DNA from: a virus
Length of the DNA: 23,866 bases
Virus record (IMG/VR): IMGVR_UViG_3300034092_002703
Coordinates: 1-23,866 of that record
Reading direction: 5' to 3' (one strand)
Each line of letters begins with the position of its first letter. The stretch's first letter is position 1. The position numbers and the translations under genes were made by a program. Below the pieces are notes generated by a model that saw only the letters and a program-made list of their open reading frames with translations, did no database searches and was not told where the DNA came from. Shown here piece after piece: positions 2,824 to 21,096 of the stretch.

Positions 2824-2859
2824 GCAATTTCCCACCTGTCCGGACAATGTGAAAGGACA
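2824..2859 (-). promoter_or_regulatory. Phage-type promoter copy 1 (upstream of terminase unit)
   Basis: On the minus strand TGTCCTTTC (2859-2851) follows the TAG stop of the preceding gene immediately. After 19 nt comes GAAATTGC (2831-2824). The next ATG (2820) is only 3 nt further on, so transcription from here would give a leaderless mRNA. It is one of five matching elements in the window. Confidence 0.6.
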
Positions 2860-4680
2860 CTATTTGATTCGCTGGGCCTCAATATCAACGTAGCCGGCAT
2901 ACGGAAGGATCTCGCTGATCTTCTTGATCAGGTATGGAGTATTCTGGATCAGCAAAACTTTTGACCAATCCCACTGAATGTATTCGTGAAATTTCAGGTA
3001 CAATCTCCCTTTGATCAGTTCGTTCAGCTCGAGGGCCGGTAGCCAGTCTTTCCAGAACCGGTCATAGATACCGAAATCATCATCTCCCACTTTGTAAGAC
3101 AAAGACCACTCACCTACAGTGGGTAGTGTGCCTACGGGAGGGAATGAGGCGTTCAAGTTGTAGATGGAATTGGTGGCCAGCGGCATGGTACCGCCACCAT
3201 GGTAAGCTTTTTTCCCGCGGTAGAAAAACAACCGCGCTGGCCATGGCGTGAATTCGTCGCCGCCACTGGCATACCAATTGCCTTTTCGTTTTGCACTTAA
3301 AAAGTTACCTGCTATACCCACACCAGGCATCTCTTCCTGGGTAAGCAAACTCACCGCAAAATTGGAGATAATGGTCTGTGTCTGATTGCCGGGTAGATAA
3401 GAGCCGACATTGTACCAAACCGGAAACCAACTGTAGATGGTACCAGATCCGCCGCCGGCTTCTGCAAAGCTCATGCAAGCGTAGTAGATGTTTAGGTTCT
3501 TGACATAATACATCTGCTGCTGCCGTGACACACCTGGTGTTGGCAACGCGCTAAAGCTTAATACCGTGCCCATGTAGCTGTACTCTTCTTCGCTCGACAG
3601 CAGCGTAGTCGGGTTGTCATCTGCGCGCTCAAAACCATATATGGCAGGCTCGGCAGCTTTGTCAAACCTGATCGAGTAGCCAGGGCTGAAGTTCTGGGTA
3701 CGATCGACAGCTCCAGCGTTGGTGAGCTTGCTGAGTAGTACCACTTCGCAGGATTTGGAACGGTCGTTGATCACGAAGGCAATGGGCAGCAGCTTCTGCA
3801 GCTCCACCAAGAATTCACCGACGGTCATCACCGGCGGCACGTGCTGGTTGAGCTTAATCACCACCGGGTTCTTTGGAGCTATGGTGAAGGTAGGCGTGGC
3901 CAGCGGTCCGTTGATCGTTGGCACTTGCCAATCCACCGAGCGGTATGATTCAAAACAAATTTGCTTGAAATCCGGATCATCGAGGATCTCACCGCTGATG
4001 CTATATCCGTGCTCCAGGAAAATCTGCTTGATGATATATACAACGAACGGCTGGGGGCATAGCGAAATGAAGTTTTTCTCTCTGGCCAGCTGTAGCGTGC
4101 CGGAATAATCCTGCCAGCCGTTGATCCAGGTAACCTGCCCTTCTTTTTCGTAATCCATGCAATACATGGGAGCAAAAACATAGTCGCCATCATCAGCATC
4201 ATTGTAAGCCCAGGTATCATGGCAGTGCTTCCAAAATCCAGCAGTAACTAAGCTATAGCCAGACCAGGCAAAACTGCGATTACCGCCCAGCGCAAGATCA
4301 CTGAGCTTTTTAGCCTTTACACGCTGCCAAAACTCTGAGATGTTGGAAAGCAGGTGGCAGTCCAGATTACCTACATTGGCCTTATTCTGATCGGCGGTAA
4401 CTCCGTCCAGGATCAGTTTGCCGGCGGAGATCTGCATGCCGCTATCCTCCAGTACTACATCGTGCTGAAGCTCCTTTGAGATAGACAGCATATCAGGGTA
4501 GTTCATCAACCTCAAATTCCGGTCACTCAGGGGAAGGCTAAACGGGTAAGATATCTCACCCGGGATGCCATCTTTCCCATCACTGGTTTGATCTAAAAAC
4601 ACAGGTGATTGGCGCTCCCGTTGCAGCTGCGTACCAGGCTGCATATCCAAGTTCTCCGATCCTTTTTTTATGCTGATCAT
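2860..4680 (-). CDS. Large tail/baseplate-type structural protein (putative hub)
   Basis: A 606-residue protein with no signal peptide, many aromatic and Gly/Pro-rich loops (for example GGNRSFAWSGYSLV and SPGYSIRFDKAAEPAIYGF) and a predicted beta-rich make-up. This fits a distal tail or baseplate hub protein. The N-terminus (KDGIPGEISYPFSLPLSDRN) resembles the way host-contact or hub proteins of Bacteroidota phages begin, but I cannot name a family. The start is firm: ATGA overlap with the preceding gene (stop at 4677). A phage-type promoter follows directly after its stop codon, so it is probably the last gene of the portal-to-tail unit. Gene certain, function from context. Confidence 0.75.
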   Translation of the reverse strand: MISIKKGSENLDMQPGTQLQRERQSPVFLDQTSDGKDGIPGEISYPFSLPLSDRNLRLMNYPDMLSISKELQHDVVLEDSGMQISAGKLILDGVTADQNKANVGNLDCHLLSNISEFWQRVKAKKLSDLALGGNRSFAWSGYSLVTAGFWKHCHDTWAYNDADDGDYVFAPMYCMDYEKEGQVTWINGWQDYSGTLQLAREKNFISLCPQPFVVYIIKQIFLEHGYSISGEILDDPDFKQICFESYRSVDWQVPTINGPLATPTFTIAPKNPVVIKLNQHVPPVMTVGEFLVELQKLLPIAFVINDRSKSCEVVLLSKLTNAGAVDRTQNFSPGYSIRFDKAAEPAIYGFERADDNPTTLLSSEEEYSYMGTVLSFSALPTPGVSRQQQMYYVKNLNIYYACMSFAEAGGGSGTIYSWFPVWYNVGSYLPGNQTQTIISNFAVSLLTQEEMPGVGIAGNFLSAKRKGNWYASGGDEFTPWPARLFFYRGKKAYHGGGTMPLATNSIYNLNASFPPVGTLPTVGEWSLSYKVGDDDFGIYDRFWKDWLPALELNELIKGRLYLKFHEYIQWDWSKVLLIQNTPYLIKKISEILPYAGYVDIEAQRIK

Positions 4681-6119
4681 CCTACAGAAAGGTAAACGAA
4701 GTCAGTAAATGGGGTTTCCGAAAATCCACAGATAGCCTTCACCCTAACATATCCCAGCATACCAAATGTGGTGAACGTGTGTGTAGGACTGGAGGTATAG
4801 ATCACTTCCTGGACAGTAGTCTGAAGCAGATCCCAGCGCTCCAAAACGTACTGCACGTGGCCCGGGCTTCCTGTCCAGGTAACAACGCCTGCCGTATTGA
4901 TAAGCCCGGTCACCAGTGGGCATGATGGAAGTTCTCCAAAGTATATATCTGGCGAGTAAGACTCATTGACATATCCTGGCGTGAAGTCCACCGGAAAATC
5001 TTTAACCGGATCACCCTCGTTTCCGAGATCCACATTTGAGTTGGTGATCAGTACCGGTCTCCATCTTTTGAACTTCAATTGATATACCCGGGTGCTTACC
5101 ATCAGATCCCGCAGGCGATCGTAGGCATCAGGATCATCCATCAGTCCAACGGAGCCGGAGTAGGTTTCCTGTTCCTGGGTTTTTAGGTTTTCCTGCATGG
5201 TGGCCAGCTCAGTGGTCGAGTAGTAATCAGCGCCAATCATTTTCTCGGCAAACTGGCGCTCGTAGACGGTTTTTTTGTTCAGCTCGCCACGTAAGCGAAG
5301 GCTATCAAACCCGCCCAGTGAGTTAAACCAATGCAGCGTAGTGACGCTATACGTGTTGCGATAATCCACCACGTACTTGAACTCAGTGGTTACGTTCACC
5401 GTGTTAGCCACTACCCTCACGGTGTAGTAATGGACCACCTTGGTATCATCAAAATCTTTCAGCCCCAGCTGAGCACCGGTGGGTATATGGTAAATGCCGT
5501 ACTTAGGCACCGATCCAGCAAAGGGCATGGTAACAGCGTTGATGCTCGAGGTACCATCGGTGTAGTAAATGTTCACCTTGGCAGACATATTGGTCTGGTT
5601 GTTCAAACCCAAATGCAGATAGGTGAGCCAGGATTGCTCACGTGGTGCGATCAGTCTGCCAGTCTTCTGCCAGGTGAGGATCCCCGGAAAGTTCAAAAAG
5701 TATTTAGGGCCCTGCCAATGTTGGTAGGGGATACCTCCTTTTACACAGATGATAGATTCACTGAGGTCTGATGTCCATGCCGGGCTTGGCGCGGCTGTGG
5801 TGACCTCACGAAAATCAATATACAGCTGCCCAGCGTGCTCAAAGGCGGGTTCAATCACCGATGTGTTGATGGCTGGTAATTTGTAATCAATCAGCGAATC
5901 TAGTATCTTTTTGAGATCGATAGATGCCCGGCCAGCACTATCGGGGACCAGTGAAGTCTGGAAGATCTGCACAAAGCCAAACGTGCCAAACTTCCGGTGG
6001 AACATCCGCACGTCAATCCTTAGGCCCGGCGTTGTCAGGGCCGCATCTGTCTGGAACCGGTACACTACCGGGTTTCTGGAAAAGCACACCTCATAGGGCC
6101 GCTCTGTCATTTGCACCAT
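4677..6119 (-). CDS. Putative tail/baseplate protein with C-terminal beta-sandwich-like region
   Basis: A 480-residue protein that begins MVQMTERPYEVCFSRNPVVY, a style seen in phage tail-tip or fibre-associated proteins that start with a beta-domain. The last about 90 residues (from roughly GELPSCPLVTGLINTAG) read like a fibronectin type III-like sandwich, with alternating hydrophobic strands and the pattern VTWTGSPGHVQYVLERWD. The gene overlaps the next one by ATGA, which implies coupled translation and paired structural roles. No enzyme motif is visible. Function is inferred from position between the portal block and the putative hub. Confidence 0.7.
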   Translation of the reverse strand: MVQMTERPYEVCFSRNPVVYRFQTDAALTTPGLRIDVRMFHRKFGTFGFVQIFQTSLVPDSAGRASIDLKKILDSLIDYKLPAINTSVIEPAFEHAGQLYIDFREVTTAAPSPAWTSDLSESIICVKGGIPYQHWQGPKYFLNFPGILTWQKTGRLIAPREQSWLTYLHLGLNNQTNMSAKVNIYYTDGTSSINAVTMPFAGSVPKYGIYHIPTGAQLGLKDFDDTKVVHYYTVRVVANTVNVTTEFKYVVDYRNTYSVTTLHWFNSLGGFDSLRLRGELNKKTVYERQFAEKMIGADYYSTTELATMQENLKTQEQETYSGSVGLMDDPDAYDRLRDLMVSTRVYQLKFKRWRPVLITNSNVDLGNEGDPVKDFPVDFTPGYVNESYSPDIYFGELPSCPLVTGLINTAGVVTWTGSPGHVQYVLERWDLLQTTVQEVIYTSSPTHTFTTFGMLGYVRVKAICGFSETPFTDFVYLSVG

Positions 6120-6122
6120 ATC

Positions 6123-8356: not shown

Positions 8357-9691
8357 CTATCCTCCTGTTTTTACTTCTTTTGTAGATCCACCTGTATCAA
8401 GGGTGGTGAGAACCAGTCCGGGAAACCGCCAAACGATATCCGCTGGCCAGCCGTTGACTTTTTTGACGATGTTAAGGATCCTGGAAAGCTGCTGGCGTTC
8501 AAATTCCTGGATCATCACCTGCACCAGTGCAGCTTCGCGGATGTTAGAGCCCGACCCAGCACCGCCGCTGTATGGGCCGCCTGGCGTGTCGGCCCCCATT
8601 AATGCCGGATTCATCATCAGGGCAAACAGGATTTCAGAATTGGCGGCAGCGCTGTCGGGCAATAATTCACCGGGTACAGTGCTATCTTGTATGGTTTCGA
8701 TCTTGAGATCCGAAACGGTTGTTTTTGAAATAGGATCAAATGATCCTGAGTTGAATATCGACTTATAGGCATTGTCATTGCCCACCAGGTATTTATCAAT
8801 GGCATCATAAACCTCTGCCCTTTTTTCCTCTTGGGTTTTCAGATCATAACCACTCCACTCATCGCCGAATACCCTTGTCCAGTAACTGTCGAATATAGTC
8901 ACCAGGTACTTGATGCGGATGTTGTTTTTAAACATCGTGGCTTTCATGGAAGGCACGTTCTTGGCGATATCCACCCATTTCTTTGCGGCGTACCATGTAG
9001 GCATGGAATAGTAATGGCGGTTCCATCCTGGCACACGGCCCGTGATAGAAAACTCCTTTCCTTTTCGCTGCTCGGGCTTCATGTTCAAGAGGTAGCTGGC
9101 CGTGCCTATTTCTGGAAGCAGGGTAAACTTGAGCAGGGTGTTATCGTTCTCTTTATTGGCTTTTGTCCAATCAGCTGCCAGGTAAGTGTGGGTGATGCGG
9201 CCGGCTTTGTCTTTTTTCGCATAGCGCATCTCGGTGACATCATCGCGGATCATCAGGCCGATCTTGGTGCCATCGTTGTTGAACTTCACCCGGCAATGGA
9301 AATTGGCAAACCCGATAACATCTTTTAAAAGTCCAAAAGACTGCATAAAGATGTTGCTTTCTTCCAGCCACTCTTCTATCTCGGGGTTGTTCACCGGCTC
9401 CAGCACTTCTTCACCCGATGGCTTGGTTTCAATCAATCTGAATGGCTTCACGCCCTTACCCAGTCCAAACCTCGCTTTACCGTCAATAGCGCCCATCAGG
9501 ACGCTACAATTCTCAATATCATCTACCATCTTCTTGGGCAGAAGATTATCCTGGCCCCAGCGAGCCCATTTATCGGTATCAAGCAAATCCGTTTCTTTCG
9601 GCTCTTTTGGGGCGGCCTGATTAGGGTCACCCGAGAGGCTGACAAATGCCACCCCTCTCGTTGAAAAGCCAAATCCGTTTTGAATAATCAT
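8357..9691 (-). CDS. Phage portal protein
   Basis: A 444-residue protein of usual portal length. Portals form the dodecameric ring at one capsid vertex through which DNA passes and to which the terminase and tail attach. Supporting features are an N-terminal region typical of portals (DNLLPKKMVDDIENCSVLMG), a long central wing/stem region, and the segment at about residues 365-390 with NPALMGADTPGG followed by SGSNIREAALV. This matches the portal hallmark where a helix after a Gly/Ser-rich loop lines the channel. It overlaps the upstream small gene by 4 nt and ends 2 nt before the next gene. There is no fusion to a protease or head-morphogenesis domain. Confidence 0.85.
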   Translation of the reverse strand: MIIQNGFGFSTRGVAFVSLSGDPNQAAPKEPKETDLLDTDKWARWGQDNLLPKKMVDDIENCSVLMGAIDGKARFGLGKGVKPFRLIETKPSGEEVLEPVNNPEIEEWLEESNIFMQSFGLLKDVIGFANFHCRVKFNNDGTKIGLMIRDDVTEMRYAKKDKAGRITHTYLAADWTKANKENDNTLLKFTLLPEIGTASYLLNMKPEQRKGKEFSITGRVPGWNRHYYSMPTWYAAKKWVDIAKNVPSMKATMFKNNIRIKYLVTIFDSYWTRVFGDEWSGYDLKTQEEKRAEVYDAIDKYLVGNDNAYKSIFNSGSFDPISKTTVSDLKIETIQDSTVPGELLPDSAAANSEILFALMMNPALMGADTPGGPYSGGAGSGSNIREAALVQVMIQEFERQQLSRILNIVKKVNGWPADIVWRFPGLVLTTLDTGGSTKEVKTGG

Positions 9692-9999
9692 ACTACACGT
9701 TTTCCGTTAAACTCTGTGATCAATCTGATATGAACCTTCCGGATGTCTCTGGTTGCCGGGTTCATGATATTTTTGGTTCTATGCTCGATGTGTTTTGGAT
9801 CTCTGGCCACCTCATACATCTTGTTACGTCTGAGGATGGGTTCAGGCATGGTGGCCAGATCGCATTTCACCCAGTTTTTGCAGGCTTTGATCTGGCCACC
9901 GGTCCCTTTCTTTCTGTCAGCGGTGATGTAGGTCATGCTGAACGGCTCGCCGCTGTCGATTTGGTTGATTACTTCATATAGTTCGATTATCGGGTTCAC
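9688..9999 (-). CDS. Small basic hypothetical protein preceding portal
   Basis: A 103-residue basic alpha/beta protein of unknown function. The best start is a GTG at 9999 (MNPIIELYEVINQ...), because no ATG lies nearer and the stop overlaps the portal start by 4 nt. It is the first gene after the phage-type promoter at 10024-10059 and begins the portal unit. Possible roles are a minor head protein or an assembly factor; nothing in the sequence decides this. Confidence 0.7.
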   Translation of the reverse strand: MNPIIELYEVINQIDSGEPFSMTYITADRKKGTGGQIKACKNWVKCDLATMPEPILRRNKMYEVARDPKHIEHRTKNIMNPATRDIRKVHIRLITEFNGKRVV

Positions 10000-10023: not shown

Positions 10024-10059
10024 TGAATTTCAGCATGAAAACCAGCCAATGAAAGGACA
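10024..10059 (-). promoter_or_regulatory. Phage-type promoter copy 2 (upstream of portal unit)
   Basis: TGTCCTTTC (10059-10051 on the minus strand) starts 4 nt after the stop codon of the tape measure gene. After 19 nt comes GAAATTCA (10031-10024). The next start codon (GTG, 9999) is 24 nt downstream. The spacing equals that of the other copies; the second box is the weakest of the five. Confidence 0.5.
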
Positions 10060-10063: not shown

Positions 10064-12733
10064 TTAGTTCACCATGGACTGCGCCCGGATGGTTTTGATC
10101 CTGTCATCCACTTCTTCATACTCGCCGTAAATCACGTTGGCGCGGATAGGTCTTGCCAACCTTTCATTGAGCATCTGCACAGCCTCCACCAATCCCGCCG
10201 TTTGGCTATTGTCCGTCCGGGGGATGAACCCGCCAGTTTCAAACATGGTCTTAAAAGAATCGCTGATCCTGGGAATGTTCATGCTCATGCCGCTTCCCTG
10301 AGCAATCAGTGAATCAATTAGGGGCCGATTGGCGGCATATACTTTTTTGCTGATGATAGGCTCACCTCCTTCCACTTCGCCTACTGTAACCCCTGATCTG
10401 TTATCGACAAGGGCAATTCCACCCTGCCGGTGAGATGAACCCTGGGGGATAAATCCACCCTGTTCAAATTGCGGAGCTTTTTGGGAGCGGATGGCAGCGA
10501 TTTGGGCGGCGGTAGTGGCTGCTACCAGTGCCACTTGAATGCCTCTTAGCACTCCAAAAGTGGCAACATCAGACGTGCCGGGCCGGGCAGCGAGGGTAGA
10601 CACAACGGCCATAGCTCCTGACATCAATGCCTGCACGGTCTGGGCATTTTTATCACGCTCAAACTGGCGTTTGCGGATCTCCTTTTCCTTTTTCTCCTGC
10701 TCCCTATTGATCTGGTCTACCCGACGGTTGTACTCTTTTTCAGAGATCAGCTTGTTCTCATACAGCCTGCGGGTAGATTCACGGCGTTTATCGTTATTGG
10801 CAATTTCTTGTTCAAGCCTGGCATTATCGTTTTGGGAAAAGATATCCGAGATAGCCGTTGTCAGGTTGCTTACCTCCTGGATATTAGCAAACAGCATCTG
10901 GATGTTGGCTTGTTCCCTGTCCAAAAAATCTTGGACGGGTGAGGTGGATCCGCTTGATTGGAGCGCTTCATCCACACCATCTTTGATCGCGTTGCCTACT
11001 TTGATGCCCAGCTCCTTGGCTCCCAGTTCAGCATCTTTCCCAAATGTATCTTCTATGGCGCCGGTGCGAACATCTGCACCCAACCTTTCCGGATTGATGT
11101 CGAATTTCTTAACCAGCGTATCCCGCTGGCTACTCAGCACCCGCTCAATGTTTTGGAGTGCCTGCTCCGCTTCCGCTGGTGTGATCAGGTTTTTCTTCAG
11201 CTTATCCTTGATGGTTTCAACATCCTTTAGGGCAGCTTCATTGATCTCCCGGAAGCCTGCGAGAATGGGGGCCAGGATTTTTTCGTTCTGGCGAACTATT
11301 TCCTCAAATTCGGCCCGGGTTTCGGCGGGAGTGGATTTTGTTTTACCGGCGCCGGTTTTGCCACCCCTATCTGATGAAGTGCCAACCACGCGGGTGTCAG
11401 CAGTTTTCTTAAAAGCAGCTATATAACCATTGAACAGCTTGACCTCTTCATCAAATTCCTGCTTTAGTTTAGCCCTCTCTTCACCACGGGCCGCTTTTAC
11501 CTGTTCACCCAATGTTTTAATCAAACCGGCCTGCCCCTGTATCAATCGGCCCTGGCGTTCTTTGGTTTGGGATTCAAAATCTTTTTGCAGACTTACCAGC
11601 TGCTCTTCCCTCGCCCTGATATTTGCGCCGAATTGTGTTTCGCCACCTACGATAGTACCCGTACTGAGTAGCCGGGAAACCCAATCAGTTATTCCTGAAA
11701 CACCTTGGAAAAAAGCGCGTACGGCAGGAAGGAGTTTTGTCCCGATATCCTCCTGTAAATTGGCAATCTCCTGCCTGCTTCGTTTGATCTGACCGGCTGT
11801 GGTTTCGCCAAATGCCTGGGCTGCTCCATCCACCTTAGGCTTGAGATCTTCCATGATGACACCAAACGCTTCTGTAACATCCTTGGCATCCTTTATATCT
11901 ACACCATAGGTTTTGAGTGCCTTACCATTGCCTTCCAATGCCTTCACCACTACGTTGGTAGCTTCTGAAAGATCTATCCGCTGTTTGGCGGCAAAGTCAA
12001 TGATGACCGGCGTGAGCTCTTTGATCTGATCCTCGGTCAGCTTACCGTAATTGATCAGCTGCTCAAACACTCCCACTATTTCATCATTGTCGATAAATCC
12101 AAGGGAGTTGGCAAATTCATCAGCAGCGGCGGTCAGCCTTTCAAACACATCCAGCCTCCCCAGGTTGTCCAGCTGCGCCCGAAACCTGGCTGTAGCTTCT
12201 TCTGCCTGCAATGCCTCTTCCACGGCACCAGAAAAGAAAGATTTAAGGCCGCTCAATGCACCTTCTGCCACCCCCAGCAATCCACCACCGAGAAACGCAC
12301 CACCGGCAAATTCCATCAGCCTTTTTAACCCGCTGCCACTGGCCACTTCCTTCAGCGAATTATCCACGCCGCTAACCGCCTTTCTTACCTGGTTAAGGGT
12401 AGTTTCAGCTTTTCTGAGTTCCTGCAACTTATTCCCCGCCGCTTCACTATCTGCAGGTATGTTTCTCAGCTCCCGGCGCAGCTTGCTCACTGCAGCCTCG
12501 GCCATCCTGAGTGATGGCAGCACCTTGCCGTCCATCACATCTTTGAGCTGCCCGATCTTCCCCTGGGTGTTGGCCAGCTCCGTCATCTCTCTGGTGAGAT
12601 CCTTCCCGGCTTTTTTGCCCTTTTCAATGGCGGCCACCAGTTCATTTTCTTTTCTGGTCAGCCGCTCCAGTGCCACCGCTCCTGCGCTTTCGTCAATGTA
12701 AATATTGACCCGCCTATTCACTACTTCTGCCAT
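10064..12733 (-). CDS. Tail tape measure protein
   Basis: An 889-residue protein that sets tail length and is thought to travel with the DNA on infection. The first about 130 residues are coiled coil rich in Lys/Glu/Leu heptads. A hydrophobic Gly-rich patch (FAGGAFLGGGLLGVAEGAL) follows near residues 140-165. Then come long helical stretches and an Arg/Glu/Lys-rich coiled coil near residues 640-700. The C-terminal segment (FEQGGFIPQGSSHRQGGIAL, then a GEVEGGEPIISKK segment) is typical of tape measure proteins. At about 1.5 angstrom per residue it predicts a tail of roughly 130 nm, so a long flexible or contractile tail rather than a podovirus. No peptidoglycan-hydrolase domain is obvious. Confidence 0.93.
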   Translation of the reverse strand: MAEVVNRRVNIYIDESAGAVALERLTRKENELVAAIEKGKKAGKDLTREMTELANTQGKIGQLKDVMDGKVLPSLRMAEAAVSKLRRELRNIPADSEAAGNKLQELRKAETTLNQVRKAVSGVDNSLKEVASGSGLKRLMEFAGGAFLGGGLLGVAEGALSGLKSFFSGAVEEALQAEEATARFRAQLDNLGRLDVFERLTAAADEFANSLGFIDNDEIVGVFEQLINYGKLTEDQIKELTPVIIDFAAKQRIDLSEATNVVVKALEGNGKALKTYGVDIKDAKDVTEAFGVIMEDLKPKVDGAAQAFGETTAGQIKRSRQEIANLQEDIGTKLLPAVRAFFQGVSGITDWVSRLLSTGTIVGGETQFGANIRAREEQLVSLQKDFESQTKERQGRLIQGQAGLIKTLGEQVKAARGEERAKLKQEFDEEVKLFNGYIAAFKKTADTRVVGTSSDRGGKTGAGKTKSTPAETRAEFEEIVRQNEKILAPILAGFREINEAALKDVETIKDKLKKNLITPAEAEQALQNIERVLSSQRDTLVKKFDINPERLGADVRTGAIEDTFGKDAELGAKELGIKVGNAIKDGVDEALQSSGSTSPVQDFLDREQANIQMLFANIQEVSNLTTAISDIFSQNDNARLEQEIANNDKRRESTRRLYENKLISEKEYNRRVDQINREQEKKEKEIRKRQFERDKNAQTVQALMSGAMAVVSTLAARPGTSDVATFGVLRGIQVALVAATTAAQIAAIRSQKAPQFEQGGFIPQGSSHRQGGIALVDNRSGVTVGEVEGGEPIISKKVYAANRPLIDSLIAQGSGMSMNIPRISDSFKTMFETGGFIPRTDNSQTAGLVEAVQMLNERLARPIRANVIYGEYEEVDDRIKTIRAQSMVN

Positions 12734-12734
12734 C

Positions 12735-13115
12735 TTATCTGATTAAAATGTTATTGACAATGCCTGATCCCAGTTCCTCGGCCACGATGTCCGCCAGCCC
12801 ATCAATGTTTTGCTCAATGATGGGGTTAAACCATGGCTTGGCTTTCCTGTTGGTGTTTCCCACCTGGCTGATCTTGGTGCCACGGCCCACCCCTTTGTGA
12901 ACGTAGATCATGTGGCGCGGCATGATGTAGGACACCCGCTCCACCAATCCACCTTTTTTGGGAGTGCGCGCCACCAAAGCTTTTTCTGCTGCTTGGGGAG
13001 ATCGGGAGCTGGCCACGTGCCGGATGCCCTGGTTGTTGATTTCAGTACGCAGTTTTAGCAGGATGTCTTTGCTCCACCCTACTATCTTACTGTTCGCCTC
13101 ATCATAGTTCACCAT
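12735..13115 (-). CDS. HK97 gp10-like tail completion/connector protein (putative)
   Basis: A 126-residue basic protein with the layout of gp10-like head-tail proteins: an N-terminal helix, a central RHMIYVHKGVGRG hairpin, then AKPWFNPIIEQN followed by a C-terminal helix. The IYVHKG...KPWFNP pattern is shared by many neck/tail-completion proteins. It lies 1 nt upstream of the tape measure gene. The ATG at 13115 is the first in-frame start and lies 5 nt after the second box of a phage-type promoter, so its message may be leaderless. Confidence 0.7.
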   Translation of the reverse strand: MVNYDEANSKIVGWSKDILLKLRTEINNQGIRHVASSRSPQAAEKALVARTPKKGGLVERVSYIMPRHMIYVHKGVGRGTKISQVGNTNRKAKPWFNPIIEQNIDGLADIVAEELGSGIVNNILIR

Positions 13116-13120: not shown

Positions 13121-13155
13121 CAAATTCAGCTATGAAACCGGCGGGAGAAAGGACA
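13121..13155 (-). promoter_or_regulatory. Phage-type promoter copy 3 (upstream of tape measure unit)
   Basis: TGTCCTTTC (13155-13147, minus strand) comes 2 nt after the T-run of a terminator. After 18 nt comes TGAATTTG (13128-13121), the closest of the five to the host TAnnTTTG box. The next ATG (13115) is 5 nt away. It restarts transcription of the tail genes after the cargo operon. Confidence 0.6.
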
Positions 13156-13173
13156 TGAAAAACCCTCCGAAGA
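13156..13173 (+). repeat. Direct repeat copy A (left border of cargo operon)
   Basis: The 18-mer TGAAAAACCCTCCGAAGA on the plus strand is identical to bases 17082-17099. It covers most of the terminator hairpin at this end of the cargo operon. The two copies are 3,926 bp apart. Confidence 0.85.
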
Positions 13174-13178
13174 GGGTT
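13158..13178 (-). terminator. Intrinsic terminator of the cargo operon (UUCG hairpin)
   Basis: The minus strand reads AACCCTC-TTCG-GAGGGTT followed by TTT: a perfect 7-bp stem closed by the very stable c(UUCG)g tetraloop and continuing into a five-T run (13162-13158). The stop codon of the last cargo gene lies in the stem. It separates the cargo operon from the tail genes that follow. Confidence 0.85.
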
Positions 13179-13353
13179 AGTTAGAATCGTTTTTTTGCCG
13201 AAGTAAAAATTCCTTGACCAGATGCTTTATGTCAGGTGCCAGATAGATAGGCACCCTAAATGATATTGTTGTGGTTGGAGTTGCCCACTCGGCTGGCCTG
13301 CCAGCACCTTCCCTGACTCCACCTCTGCCGTCTTTTTTTCTTTTCTTTTTCAT
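13177..13353 (-). CDS. Small DNA-binding-like protein, possible ribbon-helix-helix
   Basis: A 58-residue, very basic protein. It opens with KKKRKKDGRGGVREGAGRP, the GGxREGAGRP signature found at the N-terminus of many short phage and plasmid proteins. Then TTTISFRVP could be the beta-strand and YLAPDIKHLVKEFLLRQ the first helix of a ribbon-helix-helix fold; a second helix is missing or very short. The start at 13353 is chosen because it makes an ATGA overlap with the stop of the PP-loop gene; an ATG 15 nt upstream is possible. It is the last gene of the cargo operon. It could act as an autoregulator or DNA-targeting partner, but that is inference. Confidence 0.75.
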   Translation of the reverse strand: MKKKRKKDGRGGVREGAGRPAEWATPTTTISFRVPIYLAPDIKHLVKEFLLRQKNDSN

Positions 13354-14480
13354 AAGCTTTCCATCCATTTTTTAATGATCTGATCCTCTCTTTTCAACAC
13401 ATTCTTTTGCAAAATCTGATCCTTTGAGTAATTGAACTCATAGTCCCGCGCCCAAGTGATACTGCCCTCCCAATCACAGAGTAGAATACGCTTCACCATG
13501 TACTTGCAAGCCCCCACATCATCTGTGTCTCCGAAACGGCTCCATTGATAGGCAAATAATTTAGCTAAGTCTGGGTGGATGCTTTGCAGTAAAAAGTCTT
13601 TATACTCCTTCCAGCTATTGAACCGATCCGGTAAGCTTTTGATTGAGTACATCAGGTTTTCCTTAGCGTAAATTGCTGCCGTATGAACGCCCTGCAACCT
13701 CTCCTCCAGCTTATCGTAAGTATCTGGCTCTAATTCTTGCAAATCTGCCAGACATCGAAAAGCCTTTTCATGAACTAAGTTTGACACCCTCATTGTTCGA
13801 ATGTCGTGCCCAAGCATGTACATTTTGTCGTAGATTTTGTTATAGAGAAAACCGCCTTCAATCAAGTATTTCCATACATCCCGGTAAAGCCAGTCAATGA
13901 TTGGATAAGCCCTGTGAGGCTCGTTTTTTTTGCGAATCCAGAACATCTCACTATCCTCACCAAACATCACAAATCTCCGGTCAGGGCTTTCCTCAGCCCG
14001 TAAACCAATCACTGATATACTTTTCCCTTCTCGCCTTCTCAACTGCTGGCCAACCCATAAGTTAAACTTATGGAACCGCCGTGGGTACTTCACATCAATC
14101 GAGTGAATAGCCAATGGATGCTTTTCTCTTACCCACTTTTCTTCTGTACCCCAAGCCCAAAGGAAAAGCTGCTGCTGGCTGGCCGCATTGGTCATGAAGA
14201 TCGGGACCTGGTACCACAAAGGGATCACATTGGGCTGGCTCATTGCCCATTCTACAAGATCTATGGTAGCCTGGTATTCGGCTTCTTGGTCCTGAAAGTA
14301 GAGGATGAATTTCCGATCTCTTTTTTTTGCCTCTTCGTTCAATAAATGGAAAAGCACGGTGCTATCCTTACCAGCCGAAAACGATAGCTGGATGTTGTCG
14401 TAGTTATCGAACAACCACGCCACCCGCTTCTCCGCTGCTTCCAGCACATTTTCCACACCCCTTACCGCTGTTCTTCCCAT
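13350..14480 (-). CDS. IbrA-like PAPS-reductase-family PP-loop protein
   Basis: A 376-residue member of the adenine-nucleotide alpha-hydrolase (PP-loop) superfamily, PAPS reductase branch, closest in layout to IbrA-type (DUF3440) proteins. The PP-loop SFSAGKDS is at residues 33-40. The conserved GLRAEESPDR is at 159-168 and PIIDWLYRDVWKYL at 193-206, both characteristic of this family. Such enzymes adenylate or bind ATP-derived substrates, but the IbrA substrate is unknown. Only three cysteines are present (243, 325, 335), so the four-cysteine iron-sulfur site of DndC-type enzymes is not evident. It overlaps the ParB-like gene by 19 nt, as ibrA and ibrB are paired in E. coli, where they activate prophage eib genes. 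Confidence 0.88.
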   Translation of the reverse strand: MGRTAVRGVENVLEAAEKRVAWLFDNYDNIQLSFSAGKDSTVLFHLLNEEAKKRDRKFILYFQDQEAEYQATIDLVEWAMSQPNVIPLWYQVPIFMTNAASQQQLFLWAWGTEEKWVREKHPLAIHSIDVKYPRRFHKFNLWVGQQLRRREGKSISVIGLRAEESPDRRFVMFGEDSEMFWIRKKNEPHRAYPIIDWLYRDVWKYLIEGGFLYNKIYDKMYMLGHDIRTMRVSNLVHEKAFRCLADLQELEPDTYDKLEERLQGVHTAAIYAKENLMYSIKSLPDRFNSWKEYKDFLLQSIHPDLAKLFAYQWSRFGDTDDVGACKYMVKRILLCDWEGSITWARDYEFNYSKDQILQKNVLKREDQIIKKWMESL

Positions 14481-15022
14481 GCGTCCGGTTTTATGTCTTC
14501 CCCTGCCTCAACGATCTGCCGTTCAATAGAATATGGCACTCCCTTAATTTCTGAGGCGATCCCCTTCAAGCCTATAAGTCTCTGCACCTCTTCCAGCGTC
14601 ATTCCAAGCTCTTTCATGATCTTCAATTCATCCCACCCGGCTTTCAGCATGCCCACCAATGAAGCCTGTAATTCTACATCATGCTTACCCCTGGCTCTGT
14701 TGTGTCTGACAGTGGAAGCCATTCGGTCATTGATATCCTTCTGAATGACTGACACCGGCAACATACCTTTTTCGCGCTCGAAAATGTCCTTGTACCTCAT
14801 GATCACGGTATAGCGGTGAAAACCATCAACGATCACGTATTTGTCGCGGACATCGTCATAATAGCAGACAATGGGCATTGTATAGCCGTCGCACTTGATC
14901 GACTGGTACAGCAGATCCATTTCCCTTTTGGCAACATGGTTAGGGTTGTAATCATTGGCCTCGATTTTGTCCAGCGGAACTGCGATCACACTGTACACCG
15001 GACTTCTGAATTCTTTATTCAT
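14462..15022 (-). CDS. IbrB-like ParB/sulfiredoxin-fold protein
   Basis: A 186-residue protein with the N-terminal ParB/Srx fold. It carries PLDKIEANDYNPN (residues 16-28), the nucleotide-binding-type VDGFHRY (65-71) and RHNRARGKH (106-114), followed by a helical segment (about 130-155, MTLEEVQRLIGLKG) that could form a helix-turn-helix. The combination VDGFHR plus RHNRARGKH is typical of IbrB-like proteins that accompany PAPS-reductase-like partners in prophages and mobile elements. True chromosome-partitioning ParB features (long DNA-binding and dimerisation domains) are missing. It starts with an ATGA overlap with the helicase gene. Likely role: DNA-binding or nucleotide-dependent partner of the PP-loop protein. 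Confidence 0.85.
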   Translation of the reverse strand: MNKEFRSPVYSVIAVPLDKIEANDYNPNHVAKREMDLLYQSIKCDGYTMPIVCYYDDVRDKYVIVDGFHRYTVIMRYKDIFEREKGMLPVSVIQKDINDRMASTVRHNRARGKHDVELQASLVGMLKAGWDELKIMKELGMTLEEVQRLIGLKGIASEIKGVPYSIERQIVEAGEDIKPDAWEEQR

Positions 15023-16227
15023 ATTTCTTCTTTGATTTGTGCCCCTGTTTTCCCTTTCAGATATTGGAGCATTGATTGTTTTTTCTCATTGTTTTTGGCC
15101 ATCAGCAAGTCCAATTTCGGGCCGTTCAATCGGTAGAATTTCAGCGGTTGATCCTGCCCCGTTCGCTTTGTCCTATGCCTGCTCTGATCAACTACTGCCC
15201 AATCCCAGGTGTGATCCCAGTAAATGGTGTTGTGGTAGTGCTGCAAGTTCAAGCTATAAGAATTGGCCTGTAAACTCAATATCTGGCACTTTGGGAAAGC
15301 CTTTCGACACTCTTCTTGGCTGCTGATAAATTTGCAAAAAATAATCGTTCGCTCTGGATCTATCGTTGTCAGTAGTTTTTTGACAATAGTGAACTTATCT
15401 TCTGCACAACAGTAGATGTGCTGCATTTTCTGCGTCATCTCTAAAAAGATATTATTGTTCATCCGCATCAGCACCTCATTATCAAGATATAGTTCCTTCA
15501 ATCGGTTGTATTCTGCCTGCAAATCGTCATCCAGCTTATATTCCAGATCAATGTCCTGCTCCCCAACATCCAAATGCAGATCAGCTTCGTAAATATAAGG
15601 GCTGATGATGCTGTACAGGTAGTCGATATTGTGGTATCCAGCGATAAACTCCCGCTGATTAACGATCCTGTTGCCCTTGTACTTGGTTATCTTGACCGTC
15701 TCACAGAATGTGCGTTTGTATTCCGCCTGCTGCATCCGCAGGATAAGCGGAGATAAGAACTCCAGTTGTGCCCACAAATCCAGCAAATTGCGGCTGATCG
15801 GCGTGCCATTCAGGATCAGCTTGTATTCGCACTCTCTCGATAGTTCGATGATTCTCTTGGTTCTGATGGCATCCCAATTCTTGATTTTCAGCGATTCGTC
15901 GCAAACCAGAAATACCCGTTCCCGCTTGACCATCTCCAACAATCTTAAATACTCCCTATCGCTGCTACTCAGCGTCTCTATACCCACAAATTCTACCGGG
16001 CAATTCATCCCCCACCTATCCACCTCGTCCGCTATCCCTGATCCTTCAATTGGAGGATTAACTGATTGAAATGGAGCCAGCCAAATACAACGATCCACAT
16101 AAACGCTATTCACAAGCTCCACGGCGGGCCTTGTCTTGCCCGTTCCCGGCCTCATGAATAGTGCGCCTACCTTTAGTGACTGAAGGCGGCTAATGGCCTC
16201 AGATTGGATTTTTAACGAGGGAATCAT
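15019..16227 (-). CDS. Compact SNF2-family DNA translocase/helicase
   Basis: A 402-residue superfamily 2 ATPase. Visible motifs in order: motif I RPGTGKT (26-32); motif II DESLKIKN (110-117), matching the SNF2 DExxxxKN form; motif III with LNGTPISRNLLDLWAQLEF (139-157), the classic SNF2 LTGTP..N...ELW pattern; motif VI QSRHRTKRTGQ (348-358), matching QxxxRxxRxGQ. It is short for the family: only the two RecA lobes are present, with no accessory DNA-recognition or nuclease domain. Specificity may come from the neighbouring proteins. It overlaps the upstream gene by 29 nt and the ParB-like gene by ATGA. Expected activity is ATP-driven movement on double-stranded DNA. Confidence 0.92.
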   Translation of the reverse strand: MIPSLKIQSEAISRLQSLKVGALFMRPGTGKTRPAVELVNSVYVDRCIWLAPFQSVNPPIEGSGIADEVDRWGMNCPVEFVGIETLSSSDREYLRLLEMVKRERVFLVCDESLKIKNWDAIRTKRIIELSRECEYKLILNGTPISRNLLDLWAQLEFLSPLILRMQQAEYKRTFCETVKITKYKGNRIVNQREFIAGYHNIDYLYSIISPYIYEADLHLDVGEQDIDLEYKLDDDLQAEYNRLKELYLDNEVLMRMNNNIFLEMTQKMQHIYCCAEDKFTIVKKLLTTIDPERTIIFCKFISSQEECRKAFPKCQILSLQANSYSLNLQHYHNTIYWDHTWDWAVVDQSRHRTKRTGQDQPLKFYRLNGPKLDLLMAKNNEKKQSMLQYLKGKTGAQIKEEI

Positions 16228-16543
16228 CTGGTAAAATGTTTTTGGGCTCTATTTTTGTCGGTATATGACGCTCAACCACCGTGGTGATCACTGGCTCTAT
16301 TCGGTAGGTAGATGGATTGAACCAGCCTTCTTTTTTCGTGCTATATTGAAGCTCTTTTTTTTCGAGTATCCACGCTGAGATCCAATATGCCTCACTTTTC
16401 TGCACGTCATCATCTGGACATAGTACCTGGCTTTTAGGTATGATGGCTTCAGATCCATCGAAACCTTTGGCTAAAAAAGCCTTATCGGATATGCTCCGGA
16501 GGCTTTGAAGCCTCACGGAGTAACAGCGGATTTTCCCTACCAT
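16199..16543 (-). CDS. Hypothetical protein with IPKSQ motif, helicase-associated
   Basis: A 114-residue basic protein. It contains KAFLAKGFDGSEAIIPKSQV (about residues 22-41), a pattern I associate with small phage and plasmid proteins where a short beta-hairpin ends in (W/I)(I/L)PKSQ, usually near recombination or helicase genes. The C-terminus is charged and Pro-rich. The ATG at 16543 overlaps the upstream stop by 7 nt; a TTG at 16549 is less likely. Coupled translation with the helicase suggests a partner or nucleic-acid-binding role. Not a recognised named family. Confidence 0.7.
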   Translation of the reverse strand: MVGKIRCYSVRLQSLRSISDKAFLAKGFDGSEAIIPKSQVLCPDDDVQKSEAYWISAWILEKKELQYSTKKEGWFNPSTYRIEPVITTVVERHIPTKIEPKNILPDDSLVKNPI

Positions 16544-16995
16544 ACCCAAATGAAACTTGCATTCACACTCTCAAACTGAGATACAAAGGTTGCCAGTTTA
16601 CCTTTAGTTTCGGACTCATTGCGAAAATTTATAGGATCGCAAATCTCTTGAAGCTTTTGAACATAAGCATCAGCGGCTGCGTTTAACTCCTTCACTTGAT
16701 TGTCTGTCAGCAGATTGGAAAATACATGGTACCTACCGTGGTTCCAGTCTATTTTTTTATGGCTATCTGATATCTCTTTTAGCTCTGCAAATTTATCCTG
16801 TGAAAGATCTACAATTTTATGATAGGTTCTACTTCTACCTTCATCAGCTGGCTTGTTGACAAACCCTTTCAAGAAAATATTCTTAATTTCTCCATCTACC
16901 ATTACCACATATTGCTTTTGCTGGGATTCGCCGTAGTTTGCGTTCATGTGATAGCAATCTGTAAGTGTGTACCCGAGTTCGATTTGATTAGCCAT
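16537..16995 (-). CDS. Hypothetical first protein of the cargo operon
   Basis: A 152-residue soluble protein with a beta-rich N-terminal half (LGYTLTDCYHMNANYG, QQKQYVVMVDGEIKNIFLKG) and a helical C-terminal half (LTDNQVKELNAAADAYVQKL). I do not recognise it. It is visibly more AT-rich than the structural genes. Its ATG lies about 28 nt after the -7 box of a good host-type promoter, so it heads the cargo operon and is likely its most strongly translated product. Confidence 0.75.
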   Translation of the reverse strand: MANQIELGYTLTDCYHMNANYGESQQKQYVVMVDGEIKNIFLKGFVNKPADEGRSRTYHKIVDLSQDKFAELKEISDSHKKIDWNHGRYHVFSNLLTDNQVKELNAAADAYVQKLQEICDPINFRNESETKGKLATFVSQFESVNASFIWVW

Positions 16996-17023: not shown

Positions 17024-17054
17024 CAAAGATAAACATACTTTTTGATTTTGCAAA
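17024..17054 (-). promoter_or_regulatory. Host-type (Bacteroidota) promoter of the cargo operon
   Basis: On the minus strand TTTG (17054-17051), exactly 19 nt, then TATCTTTG (17031-17024). This fits the Bacteroidota primary-sigma consensus TTTG / TAnnTTTG in both boxes and in spacing. The predicted start is near 17018-17020, giving a leader of about 25 nt before the ATG at 16995. It lies between the terminator at 17084-17107 and the first cargo gene, as expected for an independently expressed cassette. Confidence 0.8.
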
Positions 17055-17081
17055 CTTTTTCTAATTTATTTTTTCACCCAC

Positions 17082-17448: not shown

Positions 17449-17486
17449 TAGAAAAAAACGTCTATACCGTGAGGAAAACACCAAAC

Positions 17487-17514: not shown

Positions 17515-17541
17515 AAAACTGTTATGAGCTGTGAAAAACTA

Positions 17542-17748: not shown

Positions 17749-17765
17749 TGCTTAGGAGTTGGTTA

Positions 17766-17789
17766 AACCCCGGCTGTTACACCGGGGCT
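17766..17789 (-). terminator. Hairpin after the major tail protein gene
   Basis: CCCCGG (17768-17773) and CCGGGG (17782-17787) form a 6-bp GC stem with an 8-nt loop, 7 nt after the stop at 17796. The following T-run is only three long, so it is likely a partial terminator or mRNA-end stabiliser that lowers expression of the next gene relative to the tail tube. Confidence 0.5.
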
Positions 17790-17795
17790 AATTGG

Positions 17796-18341: not shown

Positions 18342-18360
18342 GTTATTTTATTTTTTGATG

Positions 18361-18609
18361 TTAGATTTCTTCAACGCAAGCTGATCCAGCTTTCACCATG
18401 TACTCATTGATGGTAGCATTGCCAAGCTCTTCATATACGGTGTCATCTGTGGCAGCTTCCAGCGAGGTTCTTTCACCACATGGAAGGATGAACTTTCCGA
18501 TAACATATTTGAATTTCTTTTCACCTACTTTGAACTCATGACCGGAAGCCGGTGATAAGTCCTGAGCTGCTTCTACTGAATCGAGTTTGCTGTTTTTTGA
18601 CTTTGCCAT
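18361..18609 (-). CDS. Small hypothetical protein between capsid and tail-tube genes
   Basis: An 82-residue acidic protein. The N-terminus is polar and disordered-looking (MAKSKNSKLDSVEAAQDLSP), followed by a compact region with EFKVGEKKFKYVIGKFILP. No known family. Position directly after the major capsid protein suggests a head decoration, head-completion or capsid-associated role. It follows a hairpin that may reduce its transcription relative to capsid. Confidence 0.7.
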   Translation of the reverse strand: MAKSKNSKLDSVEAAQDLSPASGHEFKVGEKKFKYVIGKFILPCGERTSLEAATDDTVYEELGNATINEYMVKAGSACVEEI

Positions 18610-18626
18610 TGTATTTGGTTGTATAA

Positions 18627-18648
18627 GGGTAGCCCCGTAAGGCTACCC
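18627..18648 (-). terminator. Hairpin after the major capsid gene
   Basis: GGGTAGCC (18627-18634) pairs perfectly with GGCTACCC (18641-18648) around a 6-nt loop, 12 nt past the capsid stop. The tail on the minus strand is TTATAC, so termination is probably partial. Such a hairpin would protect the capsid mRNA and set its excess over downstream genes. Confidence 0.6.
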
Positions 18649-18659
18649 CTATTGATTAT

Positions 18660-19544
18660 TTATGCTACGTCATTGACGAAGATGGCCTCAGTGTCCTGGA
18701 TCGCCATGCCAACGGGCATCATGAGACGAACCTCAATGATGTTCCTGCGCTGAGATGCGGCAACTTGCACACGCTCAACATCGGTACCGAATACCAGGTT
18801 GTTTTCGAGCGTTGCGATAAGGCGGCCTGAAGTTCCCATCCACGCTACGGGGCGGATCTCAACATTCAGGTTGTCCAGCTTGTACATGCCTTCAACATTC
18901 TTGTCGAAGTTGAAGCCGAACCGGGTGCGGTAGTCTTTCCTGAAGTTGTCGAACTTGGCATATGAGCAGTAGATGACGAAACCATTTTGCCGCATCCAAG
19001 CTGGCACGCCAGCAACCATCAACTCAAATTTGTCAACACCAGTGGTATCAGAGATAGCACCAGTAACAATTGGGCTGAGGGTTGTTGCAGTGATCAAGGC
19101 AGCGATATCAGTACCCCAACCGGTTGCAATAGCAGCAGCGGTTGTGCCTGAAGCATTACGAACACCGAGGTACAAGGTGTTCCTTTGGATGTCATCCAGG
19201 TAGGCCCTGGAAATGTGATTGAGCGACGCCTCATAGAAAGGCATGTCAGGATCTGATGCCAGGTATGTGTTGCGGAAATCTTCGGCATCAAAGTCGTAGT
19301 CCCACTTTGACTGGAAGGCTGTCAGCGTTCTGTCCGTGAACTTGGGTCCGTTTGTCAGCGCATCAGCAGCTGTGTACGGACGTGGGTTACCAACGGCAGA
19401 AAGTTTTGTCATTGCCTGAGGCGTGTTGACATTTGTGCGAACCTGGATGCCCTGGCCACGTAAGTTCCAGTTAAGCAAGTTCTTTTCAAAAATAGGTCCA
19501 CCGCGCTCAACAAAGCTGGTGGTTAGTGCTGATAAATCTGGCAT
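18660..19544 (-). CDS. Major capsid protein (HK97-fold)
   Basis: A 294-residue protein. It has the N-arm (MPDLSALTTSFVERGGPIFE), an E-loop-like region around AMTKLSAVGNPRPYTAADAL, a spine-helix region (MPFYEASLNHISRAYLDDIQ) and a P/A-domain-like C-terminal half ending VRLMMPVGMAIQDTEAIFV. Size and order right after the S49 protease/scaffold gene fit the shell protein. The start is preceded by a purine-rich AAGAAGAAA, one of the few Shine-Dalgarno-like sites here, as expected for a highly made protein. It is followed by a perfect 8-bp hairpin. Confidence 0.85.
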   Translation of the reverse strand: MPDLSALTTSFVERGGPIFEKNLLNWNLRGQGIQVRTNVNTPQAMTKLSAVGNPRPYTAADALTNGPKFTDRTLTAFQSKWDYDFDAEDFRNTYLASDPDMPFYEASLNHISRAYLDDIQRNTLYLGVRNASGTTAAAIATGWGTDIAALITATTLSPIVTGAISDTTGVDKFELMVAGVPAWMRQNGFVIYCSYAKFDNFRKDYRTRFGFNFDKNVEGMYKLDNLNVEIRPVAWMGTSGRLIATLENNLVFGTDVERVQVAASQRRNIIEVRLMMPVGMAIQDTEAIFVNDVA

Positions 19545-19576
19545 TTTCTTCTTTTTTTTTATTTAATAGGTCTGAA

Positions 19577-19975
19577 TTACTTTCTGCGAGCCCGGATCCT
19601 TGCCGCTTCGGCATCTATGCTGGTCATGTACTTGGCCTCAGGATCTGCGCCAAATTCATCCTCACTTTTTGCTGTGCTGATGGGGGCTATGGTGGCAGCA
19701 TTGAGCGCGGCTAGTTCTGTTTCGAGTTCTGTGATGCGAACCTGGGCGGCATCACGCTGGCCGGCGATCTCGGTATTGGCGGCTTCCACGTTGGCAAATG
19801 CTATACGGGATTGCTCAGCAGCCGAGGTAAGATCTTCTACCTGAGTGGCAAGGGTAGCCAGTTCAGTGTCGATGTTGTTAATGGCTTCTTCGCTCAGAAG
19901 AAAACCATTCTCCACCACTTCAAAGGCATCCACCTTTGCTGCAGCGATTGTTTTTTGAAAAGCGCCTGCGCTCAT
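19577..19975 (-). CDS. Possible nested scaffold protein from internal start
   Basis: The in-frame ATG at 19975 (MSAGAFQKTIAAAKVDAFEV...) lies exactly at the border between the protease and coiled-coil parts. It is preceded by an AT-rich stretch (TAATAAAAAACAGAATACA) that looks like a ribosome landing site in this genome rather than average coding sequence. Initiation here would give a 132-residue scaffold on its own, as lambda Nu3 is made from inside gene C. Known by analogy; initiation itself is inferred. Confidence 0.5.
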   Translation of the reverse strand: MSAGAFQKTIAAAKVDAFEVVENGFLLSEEAINNIDTELATLATQVEDLTSAAEQSRIAFANVEAANTEIAGQRDAAQVRITELETELAALNAATIAPISTAKSEDEFGADPEAKYMTSIDAEAARIRARRK

Positions 19976-20893
19976 TGTATTCTGTTTTTTATTAATTGAA
20001 AACTTGCTGGCCAGCGTAGAGATCCGATCTACGATCTGGTCAAATGATTTAATACCGTCTATCAGTCCCATTTTTGTGGCTTCTTTTGCGTTAAACATGC
20101 CGCCCTTGCTCCATTTGTCTTTTTGGGATACTGCCTTGGGCCGGTTCTCGGAAATGGTTTCTATAAAAGTGTCAGCGATTTGCCTAAGGTCATCTTTCAT
20201 ACCCGAATAGTCACCGTTGAGGGCATCGCGGTAATCCTTATTCTTTTCTTCTGATTGGGGAGCGTAGATCTCATGAACAGGAATGCCTTCTTTTTTTAGG
20301 TAGGCATTCCAATCGTACAGGGTGGCGTAAACGCCGATGGATCCGAATGAATCGGATTTCTTGGTGGCGTAGATCTCATTGGCGGCTGAACCGATCCACA
20401 TGGCAGCACTGGCCATCAGGCCATCATCCACCATGGCTATAATGGGCTTACCCATGGCTTTCACCTGGTCAGCCAAAAGAGTAGTGCCATCAACTTGCCC
20501 ACCAGGAGAATCCACGTTCAGGATCACCCCGGATACATTGGGGGCGTTGTCGAGTTTACGAAGGATATTGGCATGATCAATAGATCCGTAGCTGCACATA
20601 CCACCGTACTTCATAACCGGGCCAACCAGATCAACAAACGCAATGGAGCCATCAGGTAGAGATGTCATCTCTGTCCACTTGCCTACCTTGTAAACAGCTT
20701 TACCTGCAACGGTAGCCATGAGGATGGCTTCTGTCTGTTTCTGCTCATTTTGCGCAAGGTTTTCACCGCGGTAAGCAAAATTGACCTGATGATTTTTGAT
20801 CATCCCAACAATTAACGGCAATTGCGTTTCCGCATAGCTGGTGTCAATGAGCCACCGGCCTCTGAGTATTGCTGATATTGTGGAATAATTCAT
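19577..20893 (-). CDS. S49-family prohead protease with C-terminal scaffold-like domain
   Basis: A 438-residue protein in two parts. Residues about 85-300 form a ClpP/SppA-fold protease: VILNVDSPGGQVDG (oxyanion region, 123-136), GLMASAAMWIGSAANEIYA with the likely nucleophile Ser162, and SFGSIGVYATLYDW (182-195). I could not assign the partner lysine with confidence. From about residue 307 on it is an Ala/Glu-rich coiled coil ending in KYMTSIDAEAARIRARRK, like the scaffold part of lambda C/Nu3-type genes. It matures the prohead next to the capsid gene. The start at 20893 lies 5 nt after the second box of a phage-type promoter. Confidence 0.88.
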   Translation of the reverse strand: MNYSTISAILRGRWLIDTSYAETQLPLIVGMIKNHQVNFAYRGENLAQNEQKQTEAILMATVAGKAVYKVGKWTEMTSLPDGSIAFVDLVGPVMKYGGMCSYGSIDHANILRKLDNAPNVSGVILNVDSPGGQVDGTTLLADQVKAMGKPIIAMVDDGLMASAAMWIGSAANEIYATKKSDSFGSIGVYATLYDWNAYLKKEGIPVHEIYAPQSEEKNKDYRDALNGDYSGMKDDLRQIADTFIETISENRPKAVSQKDKWSKGGMFNAKEATKMGLIDGIKSFDQIVDRISTLASKFSINKKQNTMSAGAFQKTIAAAKVDAFEVVENGFLLSEEAINNIDTELATLATQVEDLTSAAEQSRIAFANVEAANTEIAGQRDAAQVRITELETELAALNAATIAPISTAKSEDEFGADPEAKYMTSIDAEAARIRARRK

Positions 20894-20898
20894 GATAC

Positions 20899-20934
20899 CA
20901 AAATTGTAGATATCTTAAAAATGATGAAAGGACA
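20899..20934 (-). promoter_or_regulatory. Phage-type promoter copy 4 (upstream of protease/capsid unit)
   Basis: TGTCCTTTC (20934-20926 on the minus strand), 19 nt, then CAATTTTG (20906-20899), and the ATG of the protease gene 5 nt later at 20893. Preceded by AAAACC, as in copy 2. Confidence 0.6.
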
Positions 20935-21060
20935 GGTTTTAAATCCTCAGTTACTGTCAGCTGATTGGTATTGAACTGCACCGTGATGCCGTTGGACACG
21001 TTCAGCGAATTGATTCTGTTTTTTGAATTACTCTCATTTTATTATGTGTATTGTAAAAAT

Positions 21061-21096
21061 CAAAATTCGCAATGATCAATAAATACTGAAAGGACA
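21061..21096 (-). promoter_or_regulatory. Phage-type promoter copy 5 (after lysis-block terminator)
   Basis: TGTCCTTTC (21096-21088), 19 nt, then GAATTTTG (21068-21061). It comes directly after the T-run of the terminator at 21099-21125. Downstream to 20935 there is no convincing gene: an ATG at 21037 opens only 11 codons. It may therefore be a second promoter for the protease/capsid unit with a roughly 160-nt leader. Confidence 0.6.

Follow-up and report, generated by a model that had tools for sequence, protein, structure and literature searches.

The five copies of the nonpalindromic 9-mer TGTCCTTTC found in the analyzed stretch of viral DNA (23,866 nucleotides of the IMG/VR record IMGVR_UViG_3300034092_002703, hereinafter the window) are supported, by sequence comparison, as members of a putative promoter class located 5' of virion-building genes in a wide group of Bacteroidota viruses. 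Their promoter activity and late timing are inferred. According to the reading preferred here, to which a probability of about 0.7 was assigned, these elements are late promoters read by the host RNA polymerase only with a phage factor, the best candidate for which is the protein gp177; transcript 5' ends, data on expression timing and binding data are lacking.

All five copies of the 9-mer were found on the minus (coding) strand of the window, with their first bases at 2859, 10059, 13155, 20934 and 21096, and none on the plus strand (0.34 expected); none of 100 dinucleotide shuffles of the window reached five copies. According to the ORF list of the window, each copy was intergenic, as had been claimed in the original prediction, the start of the small-terminase gene being taken as the ATG at 2820 in the case of the 2859 copy. 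No copies with one mismatch were found on either strand of the window, about six being expected by chance, and the 9-mer was rare elsewhere, a relevant host with a 5.5-Mb genome having 16 copies of it. The copies lay directly after a stop codon or a terminator-like hairpin or within the short gap 5' of the protease gene. Counted from the first base of the 9-mer, a second box, AnnTT, began at offset 29 (20 nt past the end of the 9-mer) in five copies out of five (chance bound for such agreement at any single offset of about 5 × 10−8). The distance from TTTC to the octamer was 19 nt in all five copies, which met the spacing criterion of about 19 nt for sigma-ABfr promoters. Of the spacings initially reported (19, 19, 18, 19 and 19 nt), only the 18 nt at 13155 had to be corrected, as it was a register slip in which TGAATTTG had been read in place of GAATTTGC. 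The second box, described earlier as GAAnTTTG-like, is better given as AAnTT(T/G), its leading base (G or C in most of the versions first listed) not being conserved.

In the window, the element 5' of the small-terminase operon has its −33 box TGTCCTTTC at 2851..2859 (minus strand, as for all features below), directly after the stop codon of ORF 2860-4680, and its −7 box AAATT (GAAATTGC) at 2826..2830, with the predicted +1 at about 2819 and an ATG at 2820; orthologous sites were found in the relatives G001, G003, G005, G006, G007 and G008. The −33 box of the portal operon element (10051..10059) begins four bases past the tape-measure stop codon and is followed by the −7 box AAATT (GAAATTCA) at 10026..10030, by ORF 9688-9999 and then by the portal gene (8357-9691); since the predicted +1 is at about 10019 and the GTG start codon is at 9999, the transcript of this copy would be leadered. 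In the tail operon element, the −33 box at 13147..13155 and the −7 box AATTT (GAATTTGC) at 13122..13126 place the predicted +1 at 13115, exactly on the A of the ATG of ORF 12735-13115, which precedes the tape measure gene (10064-12733), and a terminator-like hairpin AACCCTCTTCGGAGGGTT with a T-run, read from the sequence, lies directly 5' of the element (13161..13178). The element 5' of the head-maturation protease gene (ORF 19577-20893), an orthologous operon head, includes the −33 box at 20926..20934 and the −7 box AATTT (CAATTTTG) at 20901..20905, with the predicted +1 at about 20894 and an ATG at 20893. The fifth element (−33 box, 21088..21096; −7 box AATTT (GAATTTTG), 21063..21067; predicted +1 at about 21056) stands at a variable cargo slot without a gene of its own in the window, and directly 5' of it a hairpin of the terminator-like kind, GCCTGGTGTTTCCACACCGGGC, with a T-run was again read from the sequence (21104..21125). 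Outside this class, and given for contrast, is a host-type promoter, TTTG-N19-TATCTTTG-like, at 17024..17056, 5' of a PAPS-reductase/ParB-like moron cluster.

Several other features of these regions were observed. The spacer of the small-terminase element (2826-2859) contained the palindrome TGTCCGGACA or a close form of it, in the window group in this element only; sites of this type orthologous to that of the window were present in G002, G003, G008 and G005-G007, and other palindromes were found in the spacer of some prophage terS sites. This palindrome might be a terminase/pac site or the site of a second regulator. The cargo slot behind the 21096 element (20935-21087) was empty in the window and in G002, held about 3.3 kb in G001 and contained different large genes in G003, G006 and G008. 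The PAPS-reductase/ParB-like/helicase-like moron cluster (13350-16995), located between late operons and having its own host-type promoter (17056-17024), was apparently missing at the same spot in G001, and similar genes were found elsewhere, on the other strand, in G006.

Relatives in IMG/VR, found by protease and terminase searches, comprised the near-identical records G001 and G002, G003 (65-82%), G005-G008 (68%) and G009 (37%). The 9-mer was present on the coding strand in each of these records, with five or six copies in most of the larger ones; a further 37% relative, G010, which lacked the exact 9-mer, had four copies of TGTCCTTTT with the same geometry. In the aligned sites of the relatives, the 9-mer and AAnTT were kept and the spacer and surroundings had diverged; A29, T32 and T33 were each found in 24 of 25 non-redundant sites. 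Among 58 non-redundant TGTCCTTTY sites from related phages and prophages, AnnTT occurred at one fixed offset (29) in 53, and at other offsets in 0-5, except for 18 at the next base. Altogether, the compared sequences contained 84 full two-part elements, all of them on the coding strands. The box-to-box spacing remained unchanged at sites where the start codon was displaced (10059 and 21096 in the window and other sites at 49-83 nt), so that the two boxes form a unit to which the start codon does not belong. In the cargo-slot copy of G002 (18670), the −7 box was lost. A contrast scan for host-type promoters revealed few of them, mostly away from late operons, and in the control, Columnaris phage FCV-1, in which a tail sheath is present, the element was not found. 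In G504 (L088-L089), the box was extended upstream, with TTAACACGC-TGTCCTTTT in four copies out of four.

Clustering of the genes behind 81 elements yielded five orthologous operon heads, namely, the head protease gene (16 sequences), the small gene preceding the portal gene (16), the first late gene behind gp177 (12), the small-terminase gene (9) and the gp10-like gene preceding the tape measure gene in the tail operon (8), these counts including near-identical records of one phage. Placement on the coding strand before structural and packaging operons, a criterion for phage late promoters, was met. In many phages the elements stood before the same late operons, with fixed spacing and on a single strand, and the interpretation of the repeats as putative late promoters with a host-like −33/−7 geometry and a phage-specific upstream box is supported by these features and by a candidate regulator, without transcript 5' ends. 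The candidate regulator, the predicted leaderless geometry and the clade-specific boxes go beyond the original prediction.

The register of the element was set on the numbering of F. johnsoniae promoters, in which the −7 element is T-12, A-11, T-8, T-7, T-6 and G-5 and transcription starts 4-5 nt past it (PMC6847099), so that offset 29 corresponds to −11 and offset 40 to +1, and the two boxes occupy −40..−32 and −11..−7 on the Bacteroidota numbering. A start codon was located exactly at offset 40, the predicted +1, in 35 of 66 non-redundant full elements (29 ATG and 6 GTG or TTG), and the base at this offset was A in 44 of 66; about half of the sites had no start codon exactly at +1. Since the predicted +1 and a start codon coincide at about every second site, leaderless mRNAs are predicted for many late operons, an inference made without transcript data. 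The A-11, T-8 and T-7 of the host −7 box were kept at nearly all sites (24/25 each). The sigma-ABfr −7 criterion was not met, as T-12, T-6 and G-5 were found in 12, 37 and 30 of 66 elements, respectively; the absence of the leading T from most second boxes had been noted in the original prediction. In F. johnsoniae, T-12 is nearly invariant and the −33 box is weak (PMC6847099), and the scarcity of T-12 would, as we infer, weaken unaided use of the elements by the host sigma factor.

The gene of the candidate regulator gp177 (171-177 aa) was the last one before the first element in G002, G003, G008 and G010. By synteny with G002 (window 21096 = G002 18670; gp177 at G002 12049-12579), it lies beyond the window, about 3.3 kb past its end. 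No credible match of gp177 was found in Pfam, NCBIfam or PDB, nor was there a match to a known transcription factor or sigma factor; homology to sigma regions 2/4 was not found by HMM or fold, and likeness to Mor/C-type activators was not found at the Pfam level or by fold. The structure model (pLDDT 82, pTM 0.76) had no Foldseek match in PDB below an E-value of 0.46. The window branch of gp177 had no PHROG match; PHROG 21888, to which no function is assigned, was matched by one A4 member (4.7 × 10−31), most likely of the G004 branch. A tblastn search of the phage collection with the G010 homologue gave no match, and peptide-pattern searches yielded few new loci. A terminal [LIVM]F was present in 8 of 19 members of the gp177 family (in five as Q..[LIM]F) versus 15 of 270 phage ORFs; this hydrophobic-F tail was missing from many members and is not family-wide. 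In L036, L037, L038, L045 and L047, QxxLF-like tails resembling beta-clamp-binding motifs were observed behind a variable linker.

In cultured phages, homologues of gp177 were Leef_1 gp39, laban6-1 gp42 and 6H gp40. Polaribacter phage Leef_1 contained six copies of TGTCCTTTT, on the coding strand only, and its gp39 was a homologue of gp177 by profile (2.5 × 10−6) and, among the fold matches of the gp177 model, the only one that reached significance (E-value = 8.6 × 10−7). According to a sequence search against G002, G003, G008 and G010, Leef_1 had mainly virion and packaging genes in common with them, as well as an integrase with G010, and gp177/gp39 was the only non-virion protein besides integrase found to be common to Leef_1 and the window group. 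Diverged homologues of gp177 accompanied other boxes with the same geometry, namely, TGTCTTAAA (6H), TGTCACAA (laban6-1) and CGTCCTA (G734). Four copies of CATGTCTTAAA each were found in F. psychrophilum phage 6H and in G004, a related record, and Flavobacterium phage laban6-1 had five copies of ATGTCACAA. In G004, AnnTT was at offset 29 in three sites out of four and one position further on in the remaining site, and its register was weaker in 6H. The gp177 counterparts of 6H, G004 and laban6-1 formed a separate branch; a profile-profile comparison showed this branch to be related to the first (probability 91.5, E-value = 8.6 × 10−7). A distant homologue in G734 led to CGTCCTA before five genes, including protease-like and portal-like ones, which was found by geometry alone, and in G788, with a distant gp177-like match, no element was found. 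Common to all boxes was (T/C)GTC at −40..−37, with AnnTT at −11..−7 in most sites, and the bases between were clade-specific. In 6H (L039), six copies of TTTTTGTCC were also observed on the strand opposite the late genes, and they remain unexplained.

A protein similarity search revealed gp177 homologues in 11 of 399 Chitinophagaceae genomes, and in most of the prophage regions around them the coding strand carried TGTCCTTT. The majority of these sites had AnnTT at offset 29, and in many of them a start codon followed after six bases. In the reverse test, a strict pattern, TGTCCTTTH-N20-AnnTT-N6-ATG, was found in 10 of 11 gp177-positive versus 17 of 388 gp177-negative genomes (Fisher p = 3.5 × 10−12); the test is partly circular, as some of the sites that shaped the pattern come from gp177-positive genomes. 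Most of the additional matches in gp177-positive genomes were 5' of phage late genes (protease, small terminase), and in gp177-negative genomes, the matches with a recognizable downstream protein appeared to lie before ordinary genes (isocitrate-dehydrogenase-like, transporter-like; names assigned by reading the sequences).

According to the proposed mechanism, a factor that the phage expresses from the last part of its early region, presumably gp177, would bind the −33 box at −40..−32 and place the host RNA polymerase on a reduced −7 box that keeps A-11, T-8 and T-7 but not T-12, and transcription of most late operons would begin on, or only a few bases away from, the start codon of their first gene. 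The role of gp177 as the reader of the box is inferred; it is preferred because of its gene position, its co-occurrence with the element and its being the sole non-virion protein besides integrase common to Leef_1 and the window group. The main caveat is that this co-occurrence might be due to inheritance of the late module as a whole from a common ancestor, although this is softened by the changing boxes. The protein may act either as an activator or in the manner of a sigma factor, and neither sequence nor fold decides between the two. The possibility that gp177 or another phage protein is a sigma-like factor replacing the host sigma at these late promoters is unlikely but has to be kept in mind: the presence of T-12 in only 12 of 66 elements means that the −7 box is not simply of the host type, and T4 gp55 is a precedent of a small phage late sigma (PMC2988020), whereas no sigma-region match of gp177 was revealed by HMM or fold, the host A-11, T-8 and T-7 are kept, and positions −6/−5 lean to T/G.

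It is rather improbable that a different regulator of the phage, such as an early protein of the HTH or LuxR type, reads the box of the late promoters, with gp177 playing some other role in the late switch. Leef_1 and laban6-1 do encode LuxR-type regulators, 6H has an annotated transcriptional regulator and G008 encodes a DnaA_C-type HTH protein; however, a sequence search of Leef_1 against four element-bearing phages (G002, G003, G008 and G010) showed mainly virion and packaging genes and, with G010, an integrase to be common, to which profile and fold add gp177/gp39, and the box variants follow the divergence of gp177. The near-constant distance of many elements from the start codon and the extra palindrome in the terS copy would also suit repressor operators or signals for mRNA processing or translation, but the constancy of the box-to-box spacing at displaced start codons (10059, 21096 and others at 49-83 nt), the nonpalindromic 9-mer and the geometry of the host −33/−7 promoter make this very improbable. 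Elements do lie between mosaic modules, and the sequence downstream of the cargo-slot copy differs among near-identical phages, as would be the case for chance repeats or recombination junctions between modules; this explanation is already contradicted by the two boxes, whose spacing is constant across dozens of diverged sites and which are restricted to one strand, and it can hardly be maintained. Within the preferred reading of phage-dependent late promoters, a broader and doubtful hypothesis is that gp177 represents a new family of Bacteroidota phage late factors, with a fold that has no match in the PDB search, which would read clade boxes with a (T/C)GTC core and give rise to leaderless mRNAs, one branch being tethered to the clamp via QxxLF and thereby coupled to replication, in analogy to T4.

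No description of the motif, of late promoters of Bacteroidota phages or of promoters in the Leef_1 paper was found in open full text, most subscription papers being outside this coverage, and no account of late-gene switching in these phages was found. Phage-activated late promoters are a known kind; the box, the regulator family and the leaderless geometry are new as far as the searches show. The element provides a precise putative promoter with predicted starts. A candidate regulator is named for it, homologues of which are present in cultured phages, and the naturally occurring combinations of box and candidate regulator lend themselves to tests of specificity. In addition, late operons of prophages that lack annotation can be annotated by means of the pattern, and the element might be developed into an orthogonal expression system for use in Bacteroidota.

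In T4 middle (MotA/AsiA) and Mu late (C protein) promoters, the site of a phage activator replaces or extends the upstream element and is combined with a host-type −10/−7 box. The putative promoters described here are similar in this combination; however, no relation of gp177 to MotA/AsiA or Mu C was found by HMM or fold, and the host phylum, box and geometry differ. T4 late promoters lack a −33 box, in contrast to the element, and gp177 has no detected similarity to sigma-2 or to flap-binding proteins. The likeness to T4 late transcription (gp55/gp33/sliding clamp) consists in a small phage factor dedicated to late genes, and part of the gp177 family has the hydrophobic-F tail resembling clamp-binding motifs, although many members are without it. 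The elements are similar to sigma-ABfr promoters (TTTG-N19-TAnnTTTG) in geometry and in the retained A-11, T-8 and T-7, and they, too, presumably use the host RNA polymerase. They differ from them in that T-12 is mostly missing, in that the −33 box consists of nine near-invariant bases, whereas that of the host is weak (PMC6847099), and in that the predicted start coincides with the start codon; in F. johnsoniae, by contrast, most transcripts are leadered, with leaders longer than 10 nt in 87% of the predicted ones (PMC6847099).
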